A stretch of 25,022 nucleotides of DNA from a virus. Shown here piece after piece: positions 3,123 to 25,022 of this stretch. Numbering within the stretch: position 1 is the stretch's first letter; every line of letters begins with the position of its first letter. The position numbers and the translations under genes were made by a program. The notes beneath the pieces are model-generated. The model did no database searches, was not told where the DNA came from, and saw nothing but the letters and a program-made list of their open reading frames with translations. Location of the stretch: IMG/VR virus record IMGVR_UViG_3300002518_000086, positions 1-25,022 of that record; one strand, 5' to 3'.

Positions 3123-3469
3123 CACACACTGACCCCCCGTAGAAATTCGGTGGCCTTGAAGTTGGGCATCTTGCGGAAACCTTTGATCATAATCGCTCCC
3201 GCCGTAGTGAGAGGACTATCAGCCCCGTCATCCACGTCAGCAATATCTCCCAAGTACAGATAACCACCAATGGCAACGTCCTGACTGACATAGATCTTAT
3301 GCGAAGACATCTCAGAGAGATCCCGAGAATCAGGAACATCACCATCCACATTCGTCCATCGACAAGTGATAGCAACTCCCGTGGGGAAGGTTTGACCGCC
3401 GTCTCCGTCATTGACCGCTGCTCCCCAATAGACAGCGTCCTGCTTCAACATTTTAGTGATGATGCTCAT
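3122..3469 (-). CDS. Head closure (stopper)-like protein
   Basis: 115 residues beginning MSIITKMLKQDAVYWGAAVN. The predicted content is beta-rich (ITCRWTNVDGDV, HKIYVSQDVAIGGYLYLGD), as in small SPP1 gp16-type stoppers that seal the portal channel. It sits between the adaptor-like gene and the gp10-like neck gene, where the stopper normally lies. Its start overlaps the end of the upstream gene by four bases and its end overlaps the next start. Function is assigned mainly from gene order. Confidence 0.6.
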   Translation of the reverse strand: MSIITKMLKQDAVYWGAAVNDGDGGQTFPTGVAITCRWTNVDGDVPDSRDLSEMSSHKIYVSQDVAIGGYLYLGDIADVDDGADSPLTTAGAIMIKGFRKMPNFKATEFLRGVSV

Positions 3470-3879
3470 GTGTTATTGTTTTCGTCCCAATCTTCCGTTC
3501 CCAGCCAACTGGCAGAAAGAGTGACCTTGGCTCTGCCTTTCGTTGCTCTGTTATTCAACGCAGCCAAATCTCCGTCAGTGTCCAAAATCAAAACCATCTG
3601 ACCGTACCGAGTATGCTGCAAGCCCAAATCAACCTTTCCGAAAAACTTCTGACCGACTTCTCCTGCCTTCTCGTTTTCAGCCAGAGGATCCCGCATCGCA
3701 TAAAAGTGAGCACTCAACCATCGTTCTATCAACTCCAGCTTTGCTGCAGTATAATCTGTTGTATTGCATACGTCTGTCACCAGAGCGTTTGCCACTTCGA
3801 TAAACGGTGCGAGATCCGTGCTGATGTTTGCGTCAACCTCAATGATCAACGCTACGGCTGAATATGTAGTTCTTGCCAT
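3466..3879 (-). CDS. Head-tail adaptor (connector)-like protein
   Basis: 137 residues with a good AAAGGA site before the ATG. The N-terminal half is helical (IEVANALVTDVCNTT then YTAAKLELIERWLSAHFYAMRDP), which resembles the helical SPP1 gp15/HK97 gp6-type adaptors that bind the portal. The WLSAHFYAMRDP segment followed by a basic/acidic linker is common in this group. It is the first of four consecutive, overlapping connector genes. No enzymatic motif is present. Confidence 0.62.
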   Translation of the reverse strand: MARTTYSAVALIIEVDANISTDLAPFIEVANALVTDVCNTTDYTAAKLELIERWLSAHFYAMRDPLAENEKAGEVGQKFFGKVDLGLQHTRYGQMVLILDTDGDLAALNNRATKGRAKVTLSASWLGTEDWDENNNT

Positions 3880-3885
3880 TTTTCA

Positions 3886-4104
3886 TTATCCTTTTGGCGG
3901 AGGTGTTGACAAGAGTTTCTTTCTTCCTTTGATGCTGGTATAAATCGAAACTCCTGCCAGCACCAAACCAATAACGCTATCGGTGATCATCGTGGAAGTT
4001 TCATTGGATGCGGTTGCAGACATACCGAACCACGCTGCCAATGCCCACGCCACGCCTCGGATAACCGAAGCTGACAACCATTTTATCGTCTGTGCTTTAT
4101 CCAT
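3886..4104 (-). CDS. Small two-span membrane protein, holin-like
   Basis: Start set at the ATG at 4104, nine bases after AAGG; a longer frame reaches 4164 but would run into the upstream gene. The 72-residue product begins MDKAQTIKWLSASVIRGVAW. It shows two hydrophobic helices, about residues 12-29 (VIRGVAWALAAWFGMSA) and 38-56 (ITDSVIGLVLAGVSIYTSI), with a basic tail (KGRKK). This layout, with S-V-I-R in the first helix and a Ser-rich second helix, recalls the Pam3-gp28 group of putative phage holins. Holins permeabilise the inner membrane at lysis. Neighbours with a C-terminal membrane helix and a lipoprotein support a lysis or membrane cassette, but no endolysin is adjacent. Confidence 0.5.
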   Translation of the reverse strand: MDKAQTIKWLSASVIRGVAWALAAWFGMSATASNETSTMITDSVIGLVLAGVSIYTSIKGRKKLLSTPPPKG

Positions 4105-4144
4105 GATCCACATCCTTACTACTATCTTCCAAGCAGCGTAAAAG

Positions 4145-22563: not shown

Positions 22564-22640
22564 TTTTCTTTCTCCTCTTCTCCAAACGTCACTTGGACGT
22601 TCAACTCCACCGTGATGTATTCACCGTCATGCTGTATCAT
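22560..22640 (-). CDS. 26-codon gene locked between neighbours by ATGA overlaps
   Basis: It reads MIQHDGEYITVELNVQVTFG followed by EEEKEK. The ATG (22640) overlaps the upstream stop as ATGA, and its own TGA overlaps the next gene's ATG as ATGA. That exact fit on both sides is good support for a real gene despite its size. The peptide is amphipathic beta in the first part and acidic at the end. No family is recognised. Confidence 0.62.
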   Translation of the reverse strand: MIQHDGEYITVELNVQVTFGEEEKEK

Positions 22641-23122
22641 TTTACTTCAGGTGCTTTCGTCAGAATGTGTTCGGCGTTCAGGCCTCTTCCCTCATGACCT
22701 CCCACGGTCTGAAAATCCAAGGCTCCTCTCTTTCTGAGTTTCCTCAGAACATTCGGAATGTTCGCCAAGTGACAATCGTTCGTGACGTTGTACCCTTTGA
22801 AATTTTTCAGGATCCATTCCCGAATATCCAGCACGCTGAATAGCTCTCCTTCGTTAATCATCGTCATATACTCGGTGATGATGTCGTAGGAAGTTTTGCT
22901 GAGATACTTGCGGGTGTCTTTGGTTCCTCTTCTTCTTTTTCGTTTCTTCTTTTTCGTAGGATGAATGTTCATCACTACAGGAACCGCAAACACGGGTGAA
23001 CCGTACATCTCATCGAGAGCAATCAACGTCTCTTCGTACCACCGTTCAATTTTGTCGATGCGAGCATCACGGATTTTCGTGAGATCGTTTTTCATCGTTT
23101 CCAATTTGCTTTTCTTCGGCAT
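22637..23122 (-). CDS. Winged-helix-like DNA-binding protein
   Basis: Start set at the ATG at 23122 behind AAGGAG, giving 161 residues beginning MPKKSKLETMKNDLTKIRDA; the frame is open to 23191 but that part overlaps a promoter. A strongly basic patch (KKKKRKRRRGTK) precedes a C-terminal domain of about 85 residues: SYDIITEYMTMINEGELFSV, DIREWILKNFKGYNVTNDCH, then IPNVLRKLRKRGALDFQTVG. The helix-helix-helix-beta pattern with a basic recognition helix resembles a winged helix. As the first gene of the leftward unit it could be a regulator of late genes or a terminase partner. Confidence 0.6.
   Translation of the reverse strand: MPKKSKLETMKNDLTKIRDARIDKIERWYEETLIALDEMYGSPVFAVPVVMNIHPTKKKKRKRRRGTKDTRKYLSKTSYDIITEYMTMINEGELFSVLDIREWILKNFKGYNVTNDCHLANIPNVLRKLRKRGALDFQTVGGHEGRGLNAEHILTKAPEVK
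22734..22753 (-). repeat. 20-base direct repeat, copy B
   Basis: Identical to 22265-22284 and read in the same frame (N-V-L-R-K-L-R), here inside the probable recognition helix of the winged-helix-like protein. Confidence 0.85.
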
Positions 23123-23159
23123 TGTAGTCTCCTTCTGAATGTTAAAATCTTTTTGCTTC

Positions 23160-23175
23160 CGTCTTATTATAGATT
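23160..23175 (-). promoter_or_regulatory. TATAAT promoter motif for the leftward late unit
   Basis: The minus strand reads ATCTATAATAAGAC with TATAAT at 23171-23166. A start near 23,159 would give a leader of about 37 bases before the winged-helix-like gene, with CAGAAGGAGACTACA at its end. A good -35 box is missing (TTTTTG at 17 bases). The terminator of the upstream structured RNA ends only about 18 bases before this box, which separates the two transcripts. Confidence 0.65.
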
Positions 23176-23190
23176 GAAAAAACCAAAACA

Positions 23191-23235
23191 AAAAAGAACT
23201 CCTTCTTCAATCGCTATTGCTCTTGAAGGTTCTTT
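23191..23235 (-). terminator. Intrinsic terminator of the structured RNA
   Basis: On the minus strand AAAGAA and CCTTC (5' arm) pair with GAAGG and TTCTTT (3' arm), with a two-base bulge on the 3' side and a 19-base loop. The 3' arm runs into TTCTTTTTTG. It ends the leader transcript before the next promoter box at 23,166-23,171. Confidence 0.65.
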
Positions 23236-23527
23236 CTTCTCTACTCGTTGAGTAGGCAGAAAGTGCCCGAGCAATTCGGACACTTTCAAAAACTTCAATC
23301 AATTTTGAGTGAGGCTTTCAAGCGGAACTTCGTCAAACCATTTCGCTGGGATCGTCCAGCCACTCCTCGAAGTTCGCAGAGTGCAAAACAAAAATGTTTT
23401 GGAACGCAATAGGGCACGTTGCGTTTCGTTACGTCTCTTCACCTACTGACCCGTGAAGCGTTTGGTATCAGTTTTTGACCTCGGTCTTTCCTGAAACTGA
23501 CGGCAGGACTTTCTGCGGTTTTCTTCC
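23191..23527 (-). ncRNA. Candidate new structured RNA of about 340 nt
   Basis: No open frame with a usable start is present on the minus strand, yet nine hairpins tile the region end to end (arms, plus coordinates): 23504-23508/23525-23529; 23468-23474/23494-23500; 23437-23442/23453-23458; 23403-23408/23420-23425; 23384-23389/23396-23401; 23325-23332/23368-23375, with an inner 23345-23349/23356-23360; 23259-23270/23276-23287 (one mismatch); 23241-23246/23250-23255; and the terminator 23193-23205/23225-23235. All but two arm pairs are perfect. A TATAAT motif stands just before the 5' end and a T-run at the 3' end. I know no phage RNA family with this layout; it is not tRNA or tmRNA-like. Confidence 0.6.
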
Positions 23528-23543
23528 TGTCTTATTATAGATG
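23528..23543 (-). promoter_or_regulatory. TATAAT promoter motif for the structured RNA
   Basis: The minus strand reads ATCTATAATAAGAC with TATAAT at 23539-23534, the same 14 bases as the copy at 23,160. The upstream sequence is a T-rich tract (minus strand), with no TTGACA-like box at the usual distance. The first hairpin of the candidate RNA begins at the predicted start. Confidence 0.65.
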
Positions 23544-23602
23544 CGAAAAGAAAAACAAAAAATTTCAAAAAAACTTTTCAGGATCCAAAAAACAAAAGAG
23601 CC

Positions 23603-23625
23603 ATAACACTAACAAATAACACTAA
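23603..23625. repeat. Two direct copies of ATAACACTAA, 13-base spacing
   Basis: Copies at 23603-23612 and 23616-23625 lie in the AT-rich spacer (23,544-23,681) between the leftward and rightward promoters. Two in-phase copies on one face of the helix suggest a protein-binding site or remnants of iterons. The rest of that spacer holds A-tracts and no gene. Confidence 0.45.
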
Positions 23626-23681
23626 AAAGGAAGGGAAAAAGGAGCCCAAAAAAAAAGTGCATGTTTTTTCGGATTTTACGC

Positions 23682-23715
23682 TTGACGAATATCGAAACAG
23701 TCGATACTATATAGT
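23682..23715 (+). promoter_or_regulatory. Rightward sigma70-like promoter with operator-like palindromes
   Basis: TTGACG (23682-23687) and TACTAT (23705-23710) are exactly 17 bases apart. The inverted pair TATCG/CGATA (23690-23694/23702-23706) lies in the spacer, and the perfect palindrome ACTATATAGT (23706-23715) overlaps the -10 box and start. This is the best promoter in the window and should drive the small plus-strand genes; the palindromes could bind a repressor. Confidence 0.75.
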
Positions 23716-23751
23716 GTAGAAGTTAAGAGGTTATTAAAAGTGAATAGAGAA

Positions 23752-23874
23752 ATGCGGATGGCAGCGAAAGCAGGTTTCGAATCATGCGAAAGCCAAGGCC
23801 TCTCGGGAGAGAAGGTTGAGATGAGAAACGGTCAGACCCATGAGAAGTTTGAAATTGTAAGTGCGGATTTATAG
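23752..23874 (+). CDS. Possible 40-codon leader gene
   Basis: An ATG at 23752 opens a 40-residue frame, MRMAAKAGFESCESQGLSGE followed by KVEMRNGQTHEKFEIVSADL, ending in TAG. The preceding AATAGAGAA is a poor ribosome binding site, so expression is uncertain. It lies 35 bases after the predicted start of the rightward transcript. The segment contains two GCGAAAGC words that can form mini-hairpins, so it may act as RNA instead. Confidence 0.35.
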   Translation: MRMAAKAGFESCESQGLSGEKVEMRNGQTHEKFEIVSADL

Positions 23875-24020
23875 CGAGCCTCTGAGGATAGCAACTCACT
23901 AGCTGATCGGCGAAACAAGGTTACACTCTTCAGACTTCTCCAGCGTGCTGAAACGCTTTGACCGAGTGAAAGACTTTTATGAGGAAGCAACGCCTCACGG
24001 TCAAGTTTGAAATTGAAATG
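23875..24020 (+). other. Structured leader upstream of the first plus-strand gene
   Basis: No sizeable gene. Hairpins: AGCGT/ACGCT (about 23942-23956), TTGACCG/CGGTCAA (23958-23964/23998-24004) enclosing TGAGG/CCTCA (23980-23984/23993-23997). The word AAGTTTGAAATTG occurs at 23845-23857 and again at 24003-24015. A 19-codon frame (23979-24038, MRKQRLTVKFEIEMKTETT) ends inside the repeated cassette; it has no clear ribosome binding site. Confidence 0.4.
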
Positions 24021-24054
24021 AAAACTGAAACTACTTAGAAGGAGAATGAAAATG
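24021..24054 (+). repeat. Repeated leader cassette, copy 1
   Basis: AAAACTGAAACTACTTAGAA followed by GGAGAATGAAAATG; a variant of the cassette before each plus-strand gene. It supplies the ribosome binding site AAGGAG. Aligning it to the other copies places the gene start at the second ATG (24052). Confidence 0.8.
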
Positions 24055-24252
24055 AAACTGACGCAAGTGGAACAATCGTTATTGAACTTCGGAACTTTGG
24101 AATCACTCATCGAGAAAAAAGAAAAAGAACTGGCCAGCTGGCTTTCGGATACAACTTCTCGATGCTCGGACGAAACCAAAAAGCATCTTCAAGTTGTTAT
24201 TGAAGATTTGAAGAAAGTCATCAAGAGATTGAACGCAGTCAAAGAAGCATAA
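24052..24252 (+). CDS. Unknown small coiled-coil protein
   Basis: 66 residues from the ATG at 24052, seven bases after GGAG; an ATG at 24046 is too close to the site. MKLTQVEQSLLNFGTLESLI is followed by EKKEKELASWLSD and a second helix HLQVVIEDLKKVIKRLNAVK. Two helices with a short Ser/Thr/Cys linker suggest a helical hairpin or coiled coil. It is first in the rightward unit of small genes, which in phages often encode host-takeover factors. No family is recognised. Confidence 0.65.
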   Translation: MKLTQVEQSLLNFGTLESLIEKKEKELASWLSDTTSRCSDETKKHLQVVIEDLKKVIKRLNAVKEA

Positions 24253-24290
24253 CCAAAACTGAAACTACTTAGAAAGGAAAATCAAAATGA
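24250..24290 (+). repeat. Repeated leader cassette, copy 2
   Basis: 41 bases that begin with the TAA stop of one gene and end with the ATGA at the start of the next: TAACCAAAACTGAAACTACT, then TAGAAAGGAAAATCAAAATGA. It differs from copy 3 at one base. Confidence 0.88.
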
Positions 24291-24616
24291 CACAGCTAAC
24301 AAAAATCAAAAACGAAACTATCAAAGACATCGAAACTAAAAAAGAAAAGAAATTGATTGAGAGGAGAGTTGACACCGAACTCAAAGAGGACATCCAAAGC
24401 ATCATCGACCAAGCCATGGAAAAGTTCGGACACTACCCAAGTGTGACAAGTTTGGGTATCGGACTTCGTCACGAACTTCATCACGCTCGGATCCTTCCTG
24501 AGAGTGAAAGAAAATGGAGTGTGGGTGCTTCAGCGGATTTCGAGGACAGAATTGAAGAACTTGGATTCACTATTTTCAACGATCCAACCGCAATTTGTAT
24601 TCAACGAGTCAAATAA
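24287..24616 (+). CDS. Unknown small protein
   Basis: 109 residues with AGAAAGGA before the ATG. The N-terminal third is a highly charged helix (KNETIKDIETKKEKKLIERR), then DIQSIIDQAMEKFGHYPSVT, SLGIGLRHELHHARIL and a C-terminal segment FEDRIEELGFTIFNDPTAIC. The HELHH sequence looks like a HExxH start (H-E-L-H-H), but no third ligand context is evident, so a peptidase is not claimed. Second gene of the rightward unit. Confidence 0.65.
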   Translation: MTQLTKIKNETIKDIETKKEKKLIERRVDTELKEDIQSIIDQAMEKFGHYPSVTSLGIGLRHELHHARILPESERKWSVGASADFEDRIEELGFTIFNDPTAICIQRVK

Positions 24617-24654
24617 CCAAAACTGAAACTATTTAGAAAGGAAAATCAAAATGA
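24614..24654 (+). repeat. Repeated leader cassette, copy 3
   Basis: TAACCAAAACTGAAACTATT, then TAGAAAGGAAAATCAAAATGA; 40 of 41 bases match copy 2, again spanning exactly from stop codon to start codon. Confidence 0.88.
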
Positions 24655-24959
24655 ACAACTCATACGAAATGGACGTGATTGACGCTGCTGAAAAAAGAGC
24701 ATCAGAAAAAAGAGAAGCCAAGGCGGAAGCCAGACGGGAAAAGGAGCACACACATTACTGTATCAAAGGTGAAAGAGTTATCAACCGTGAAACCAAAACT
24801 TTCTACTGGTCAGGAAAAGTTTGGTACAACGAAGGCAACACCCACTTCTTTCCTCGCTATTGGAAGACACGACAAGCAGCGGAAAACAAAATGAATCGAA
24901 TGATTCAGAATGACGAGGAGTTTGGATATCAACTCAGCGTTGAAAAACAGTGGGTGTAA
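24651..24959 (+). CDS. Unknown small basic protein
   Basis: 102 residues. A charged helix (AAEKRASEKREAKAEARREK) precedes a compact aromatic-rich region: HYCIKGERVINRETKTFYWS, GKVWYNEGNTHFFPRYW and KTRQAAENKMNRMI. The aromatic/basic composition fits nucleic acid or protein binding. It is third in the rightward unit and is followed by a UUCG hairpin and the start of another cassette. No family is recognised. Confidence 0.65.
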   Translation: MNNSYEMDVIDAAEKRASEKREAKAEARREKEHTHYCIKGERVINRETKTFYWSGKVWYNEGNTHFFPRYWKTRQAAENKMNRMIQNDEEFGYQLSVEKQWV

Positions 24960-24973
24960 TTGATTCGCTGTTC

Positions 24974-24991
24974 GCTCCTCTTCGGAGGAGC
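24974..24991 (+). other. Perfect UUCG-capped hairpin
   Basis: GCTCCTC-TTCG-GAGGAGC: seven perfect pairs and the very stable UUCG loop. No T-run follows, so it is not a classic terminator; it could stabilise or delimit mRNA ends between small genes. Confidence 0.7.
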
Positions 24992-24999
24992 CTACACTG

Positions 25000-25022
25000 A
25001 ACCAAATTGAAAACTGAAACTA
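25000..25022 (+). repeat. Repeated leader cassette, copy 4 (cut by window edge)
   Basis: AACCAAATTGAAAACTGAAA followed by CTA repeats the start of the cassette, so another small plus-strand gene probably begins just beyond the window. Confidence 0.7.

Follow-up and report, generated by a model that had tools for sequence, protein, structure and literature searches.

We found a structured RNA in the genome of an uncultured tailed phage which is encoded on the minus strand and which, judged from sequence comparison, has kept its shape in a clearly different phage (L005, contig G004) while its sequence has changed. This RNA, here called RNA1, is predicted to be a non-coding transcript of about 338 nt. 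Its structure (by comparison), strand, conservation, position and end signals are established from the two genomes. We infer, further, that RNA1 is transcribed by the host enzyme, is stable and acts in trans, presumably on a protein rather than as an antisense RNA. The reading that we prefer, with a probability of about one half, is that of a discrete, stand-alone structured phage RNA acting in trans, and we class RNA1 as a new family among the orphan structured RNAs of phages.

The RNA1 unit and its promoter class

The window, i.e. the whole stretch of 25,022 nt that was analysed, is part of a 25221-base virus record, in which the genes for the small terminase, the large terminase (TerL) and the portal protein lie 3' of RNA1 on the minus strand. 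Read on this strand from 23540 to 23190, the region opens with CTATAATAAGAC, continues as a row of hairpins and closes with a last hairpin followed by U's. The TATAAT motif, the hairpins and the terminator were found at the positions that the first-pass annotation had named, and together they form a promoter-to-terminator unit on the minus strand:

23190-23527, minus strand: RNA1, predicted non-coding transcript of about 338 nt (fold energy, covariation, ORF checks, L005 relative)
23534-23539, minus strand: RNA1 promoter, -10 box TATAAT within the 12-mer ATCTATAATAAG (23542-23531) (sequence)
23190-23234, minus strand: intrinsic terminator, hairpin 23234-23194 plus U run (fold, -12.0 kcal/mol)
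23166-23171, minus strand: -10 box of the following promoter, likewise of this class, directly past the RNA1 terminator and before a 161-aa ORF and the terminase genes (sequence)

From the usual promoter spacing, transcription is predicted to start near 23527; no clear -35 hexamer was seen for this promoter. A coding function of the interval was considered and rejected: mechanical ORF calling gave no ORF of at least 60 aa inside it, none of the eight overlapping ORFs of 31 to 54 aa (mechanical calls of at least 30 aa) starts with ATG, and no reading frame common to the RNA1 members of the window and L005 was visible by eye. The stretch is thus without a sizeable reading frame, in line with its earlier description as gene-less.

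Relatives were sought by a TerL scan of the viral_contigs collection. The TerL of L005 is 77% identical to that of the window, and the L005 phage carries a relative of RNA1, 73% identical over 186 nt, at the corresponding site 5' of its terminase genes:

L005, about 3799-4140, plus strand: RNA1 relative (sequence alignment, fold)

A TATAAT box (3787-3792) and a U-tailed terminator hairpin (-15.9 kcal/mol) belong to this member as well; the hairpin differs from that of the window. A second TATAAT box lies 3' of the RNA1 terminator in both phages. The same scan returned the fragment L006 and three further contigs whose TerL is 100% identical to that of the window and in which 2722 bases over the region are at least 99.9% identical to the window.

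The 12-mer ATCTATAATAAG occurs at 7 sites in contig G001, which is near-identical to the window, and at 0 sites in each of 30 dinucleotide shuffles. In the window it stands at 23531-23542 and 23163-23174 (minus strand), on either side of RNA1, and the promoter regions before and after RNA1 are 84% alike over 45 nt. Four of the 7 sites are located 23 to 27 bases before a minus-strand ORF of G001, as called mechanically. While ATCTATAATAAG is absent from G004, the genome of the L005 phage contains GTATAATAA four times, compared to a mean of 0.1 and a maximum of 1 in shuffles, and these sites again include the start of RNA1 and the stretch past its terminator. Given these repeated sites, RNA1 seems to belong to the products of a promoter class in use across the genome. 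As a separate observation, ATCTATAATAAG stands several times directly before a likely ribosome-binding site.

Conserved structure of RNA1

For the covariation count, stems P1 to P8 were drawn by hand on the two-sequence alignment of the window and L005, giving 59 pairs and 118 cells. Standard pairs fill 117 of the 118 cells, and 20 of the 59 pairs have changed on both sides, which are the compensatory changes that the first-pass annotation had asked for as support. None of 500 shuffles, for which there were two sequences only to shuffle, reached 20 two-sided pairs (mean 10.0). When the partners were slid by 1 to 3 columns, 0 or 1 two-sided pairs were left and 34 to 43% of the cells paired; the structure was drawn and counted on the same two sequences and is therefore favoured by construction, but the effect is still far beyond that of the slid versions. 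Both members retain two G-U pairs (columns 1/35 and 224/238). These would fail on the other strand and thus favour an RNA of the minus strand, the strand that had been named beforehand.

Fold energies point in the same direction. The minimum free energy (MFE) of 23545-23180 is -112.4 kcal/mol compared to a shuffled mean of -94.1 kcal/mol (z -3.28), and 0 of 100 dinucleotide shuffles folded as low, so that the energy comparison proposed with the first-pass annotation came out in favour of a structured RNA. The L005 relative reaches a z of -4.13, likewise with 0 of 100 shuffles as low. The individual hairpins are as follows (window coordinates):

23503-23516, minus strand: P0, 4 bp, GCAG/CUGC (L005: GCUC/GAGC); hand reading, two pairs differ on both sides
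23467-23501, minus strand: P1, 8 bp, with a small inner P1a; two-sided changes in 4/8 pairs
23437-23458, minus strand: P2, 6 bp, 10-nt loop GGGUCAGUAG; two-sided changes in 5/6, in both MFE folds
23403-23425, minus strand: P3, 6-7 bp, loop end GCCCUA in both members; two-sided changes in 4/6, in both MFE folds
23384-23401, minus strand: P4, 7 bp; two-sided changes in 2/7, in both MFE folds
23325-23375, minus strand: P5, stem of 7-8 bp around P6 and the strand AAAUGGUUUGA; two-sided changes in 3/7 (3/8 with an extra closing pair)
23345-23360, minus strand: P6, 5 bp, GCUGG/CCAGC, invariant; in both MFE folds
23260-23286, minus strand: P7, 10 bp counted, one kept U-G pair; two-sided changes in 2/10
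23241-23255, minus strand: P8, 6 bp, CUACUC/GAGUAG, invariant; in both MFE folds

Counted at the outer level there are nine hairpins (P0 to P5, P7, P8 and the terminator hairpin), with P6 nested in P5. The outer stems of P1 to P5, P7 and P8 are free of mismatches in the window sequence. Nine hairpins and seven perfect outer arms are also the counts given in the first-pass annotation. P1 has 8 pairs, P5 has 8 with the extra closing pair, and P7 is longer with 10. The linker between P0 and P1 differs in length between the window and L005, and the inner P1a contains the sole unpaired cell of the structure and no two-sided change. As P6 does not vary, it contributes no covariation evidence.

P2, P3, P4, P6 and P8 are complete in the MFE folds of both the window and L005. 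P1 is formed with 8/8 pairs in L005 and 0/8 in the window, and P7 is complete in the window with 7/10 pairs in L005. P5 is missing from both folds (0/7 in each), a local hairpin taking its place, so that its two-sided changes in the comparison are what speaks for it.

Between unpaired stretches of RNA1, four helices of at least 5 bp can be drawn where 1.0 is expected, which is a weak excess (0.045 of permutations as high). The P2 loop has two possible partners: its 3' half, AGUAGG, can pair with the 5' arm of P8, CCUACU, or the loop can pair with that of P6. Two candidate contacts did not stand out from chance. A kissing pair between the loops of P2 and P6 has one two-sided change, and 0.52 of 2000 column permutations were as high; a pseudoknot that would join the bases preceding P5 to those following the P5 5' arm is possible in both sequences and pairs in 24/24 cells, but the helix is invariant and 81 of 500 shuffles were as high.

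RNA2 and the genome setting

A second conserved element, RNA2, lies divergent from RNA1 and precedes small rightward genes:

23715-24040, plus strand: RNA2, candidate leader of the rightward unit, ends approximate (conserved in L005, about 3350-3625, minus strand)
23842-23853/23929-23940, 23856-23860/23921-23925, 23959-23964/23998-24003 and 23980-23984/23993-23997, plus strand: RNA2 helices (covariation)

In the comparison with L005 its four helices comprise 28 pairs with 56/56 cells paired, and 9 pairs are changed on both sides (0/500 shuffles). The stretches AGUGCGGAUUUAUAGCG and ACAAGGUUACA are identical in both phages, and on its own RNA2 folds no better than shuffled sequences (z 0.19). 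No terminator was seen between RNA2 and the next gene, and RNA2 therefore looks like the leader of the divergent operon. A comparison of RNA2 with phage records gave no match, and its pattern occurs in 10 other contigs of viral_contigs, nine of which share one other sequence, while one is different again. We also noted an operator-like inverted repeat, TATCGA N5 TCGATA (window 23690-23706), which adjoins a TTGACG box upstream of RNA2 and has TATTGG N5 CCAATA in the aligned place of L005 (3634-3650). Further along, near-identical leaders (24249-24290 and 24613-24654; 97.6% over 42 nt) stand before successive small rightward genes, with a third copy at the window end (94.4% over 36 nt).

The window has a gene for a 161-aa protein directly downstream of RNA1. 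In L005 this place is taken by an ORF of 83 aa, and the two do not align at E 100 or better. As the downstream genes are unrelated, RNA1 is not tied to one gene. When 20 of the 30 listed ORFs of the G001 replication arm were compared to Pfam, the matches included a family A DNA polymerase and proteins of the RecA-like, gp32-like, exonuclease and helicase kinds, and no RNA polymerase is among these 20. The same arm carries genes for a radical SAM protein, an amidoligase-like protein and a PLP-dependent enzyme (L055, 13616-17360). In G004, genes for PTPS (QueD-like), a radical SAM protein and QueC are found (L058, 9337-11038), which suggests a 7-deazaguanine pathway in the L005 phage.

Relatives and possible roles of RNA1

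A covariance model of the RNA1 P2-P6 core, termed R1, matched 5 of 13 virus records, namely the window's own, the three near-identical contigs and that of L005. Members scored 187 and 198 bits, the best non-member 14.4 bits, all scores outside the members being at chance level, and the window contains one copy. Among four isolated phages and three genomes, R1 gave one weak match in the 7 (14.4 bits, E 0.53). Three sequence patterns of RNA1, applied to viral_contigs, found members in the known contigs only, besides 12 + 2 other loci without an R1 match. One RNA1 pattern gave 0 loci in genome_contigs, where the TerL scan gave 5 distant loci; a portal scan with poor query peptides returned one near-identical contig only. 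With blastn, RNA1 matched none of the phage records and, among plasmids, one 36-nt piece (E 0.09). In the sequences searched, RNA1 is thus known from these two lineages only.

No match at gathering score was obtained for the whole window with Rfam 15. Up to E 5, Rfam listed two microRNA matches near E 4, i.e. at chance level, for window positions 22600-25022 and five matches, all far below gathering scores, for L005 3300-4200; the ROOL and GOLLD models were absent from all of these matches, in the window at gathering score and in both intervals up to E 5. ARAGORN detected 0 tRNA or tmRNA genes in the window, and contigs G001 and G004 contain no tRNA. The earlier description of a probably undescribed structured RNA that is neither tRNA nor tmRNA is therefore upheld, with no Rfam family above chance and no phage record matching, and the accessible literature on structured phage RNAs, which largely excludes subscription journals, did not yield such an RNA either.

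ROOL and GOLLD are large structured non-coding RNAs of phages and prophages, recognized by covariance analysis and described as of unknown function in the accessible text of PMC12286853, which gives a ROOL example of 659 nt with multiple predicted pseudoknots, many GOLLD RNAs of more than 800 nt and a frequent location near tRNA islands. As far as that text allows a comparison, RNA1 resembles them in being phage-encoded, structured and non-coding, but it is shorter (about 338 nt), has no tRNA nearby (0 in the window, G001 and G004) and no supported pseudoknot. ROOL and GOLLD, as portrayed there, proved to be surprising objects, and RNA1 adds another structured phage RNA that is outside Rfam release 15. 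With its clear ends and small size, it readily lends itself to synthesis, probing and structure determination. With RNA1 between the replication and virion operons and RNA2 opposite, a role in host takeover or timing, which we put forward as a proposal, could be tested given a host.

How might such an RNA work? Under the stand-alone reading, host RNA polymerase would initiate RNA1 at a ATCTATAATAAG-class promoter of the phage and stop about 338 nt on, at the intrinsic terminator, and the virion operon would be read from its own promoter of the same class. RNA1 would fold as a row of hairpins round the P2-P6 core, with the conserved single strands (the GGGKCAGUAG loop, the GCCCUA loop, AAAUGGUUUGAC and UUGAAAGCCUCACUCAAAA) as its possible working surface, and may bind a partner in trans via its shape, as a scaffold or modulator of host machinery. 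Unrelated downstream genes with a promoter-like box of their own make a stand-alone RNA the simplest reading. Against it, a cis-acting leader, too, would fit the place that RNA1 takes before the terminase unit of either phage.

Such a leader is a possible alternative, which we consider less probable. Nascent RNA1 would act on RNA polymerase, or be sensed by a factor, so that transcription from the upstream promoter also runs through the terminator into the virion genes, in the manner of put-like antitermination or attenuation. The order of promoter, structured RNA, terminator and virion genes in both phages speaks for this model, and the lambda pR' leader offers a likeness. RNAs of the put type let RNA polymerase read through terminators in cis. 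In HK022, put RNAs lie downstream of both early promoters, and RNA2 leads a divergent operon in a comparable way; the accessible part of PMC9378689 describes them as RNAs of about 70 nt with two stem-loops, putL resembling putR. Measured against that description, the likeness is that structured RNAs are located close to where phage operons begin and that two elements lead divergent operons. The differences are that RNA1, at about 338 nt, is nearly five times longer than the put RNAs, consists of nine outer hairpins, ends in a terminator and is found by R1 in one copy in the window. Moreover, Q acts via DNA sites in the promoter, according to the accessible part of PMC6606751, and a conserved RNA fold would not be needed for this. 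The promoter-like box past the RNA1 terminator in both phages argues against the leader, too, and together with the unrelated downstream genes it speaks against the regulator of the late unit that the first-pass annotation had suggested, which we likewise regard as possible.

A more far-reaching view, which we consider doubtful, is that RNA1 founds a new class of phage RNAs and that, paired with RNA2, it opens the phage programme in both of its divergent halves. Loop or pseudoknot contacts could then turn RNA1 into a switch or into a particle that assembles as ROOL and GOLLD do, whose RNA forms homo-oligomers on its own, and it would set the pace at which the phage passes from its replication genes to its virion genes.

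It is unlikely that RNA1 works in trans as an antisense RNA, pairing with phage or host messages via its conserved single strands. These stretches do measure 10 to 19 nt, and both contigs contain complements of 9 to 11 nt: counting matches of at least 9 nt outside RNA1, AAAUGGUUUGAC has 1 in G001 and 2 in G004, and UUGAAAGCCUCACUCAAAA has 3 and 11, respectively. By rough arithmetic, however, each contig should contain about 4 to 5 nine-mer matches to the 19-nt strand, to be compared with the 3 and 11, and the complement sites have no demonstrated corresponding places in the two phages. The kept secondary structure also exceeds what a base-pairing RNA would need.

The phi29 pRNA is a phage RNA encoded beside packaging genes. 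A similar RNA for the DNA-packaging motor, as had also been proposed for this region, would be consistent with a structured RNA near the terminase genes in both phages, but we consider this very unlikely. Unlike phi29, the window phage encodes a TerS/TerL pair (Terminase_2, E 7.8e-24; Terminase_6C, E 1.1e-6; phrog_51 and phrog_38), and the packaging process of phi29-like phages is described as characteristic of their group. L011 and L012, two fragments with a TerL 49 and 45% identical, gave no significant R1 match either (best E 0.21).

CsrB and RsmZ are stand-alone RNAs built as a row of hairpins and carrying many GGA motifs, often within the hairpin loops, and CsrB is about as long as RNA1. 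The row of hairpins in RNA1 could accordingly be taken for a decoy that soaks up an RNA-binding protein of the CsrA type at repeated sites. This form of the decoy suggested in the first-pass annotation is highly improbable: the hairpin loops differ among themselves without any repeated loop, and GGA is not enriched, with 5 occurrences in the 338 nt of RNA1 (shuffled mean 5.5) and 5 in the 344 nt of the L005 member (shuffled mean 7.1).

Inverted repeats occur in DNA, too, and the locus lies between divergent operons, so that a DNA element such as a cruciform, a replication site or a packaging site could be envisaged in place of an RNA. We give this equally little credence, since the two kept G-U pairs favour a minus-strand RNA, in both phages the element has a promoter-like box on one side and a terminator on the other, both on the same strand, and conservation extends to the loops and joining strands. 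Finally, an intergenic region may contain inverted repeats by chance. This explanation has in its favour that hairpins are common and that P5 appears in neither MFE fold, but it is practically negligible in view of the energy z-scores of both members and the two-sided changes in 20 of 59 pairs.
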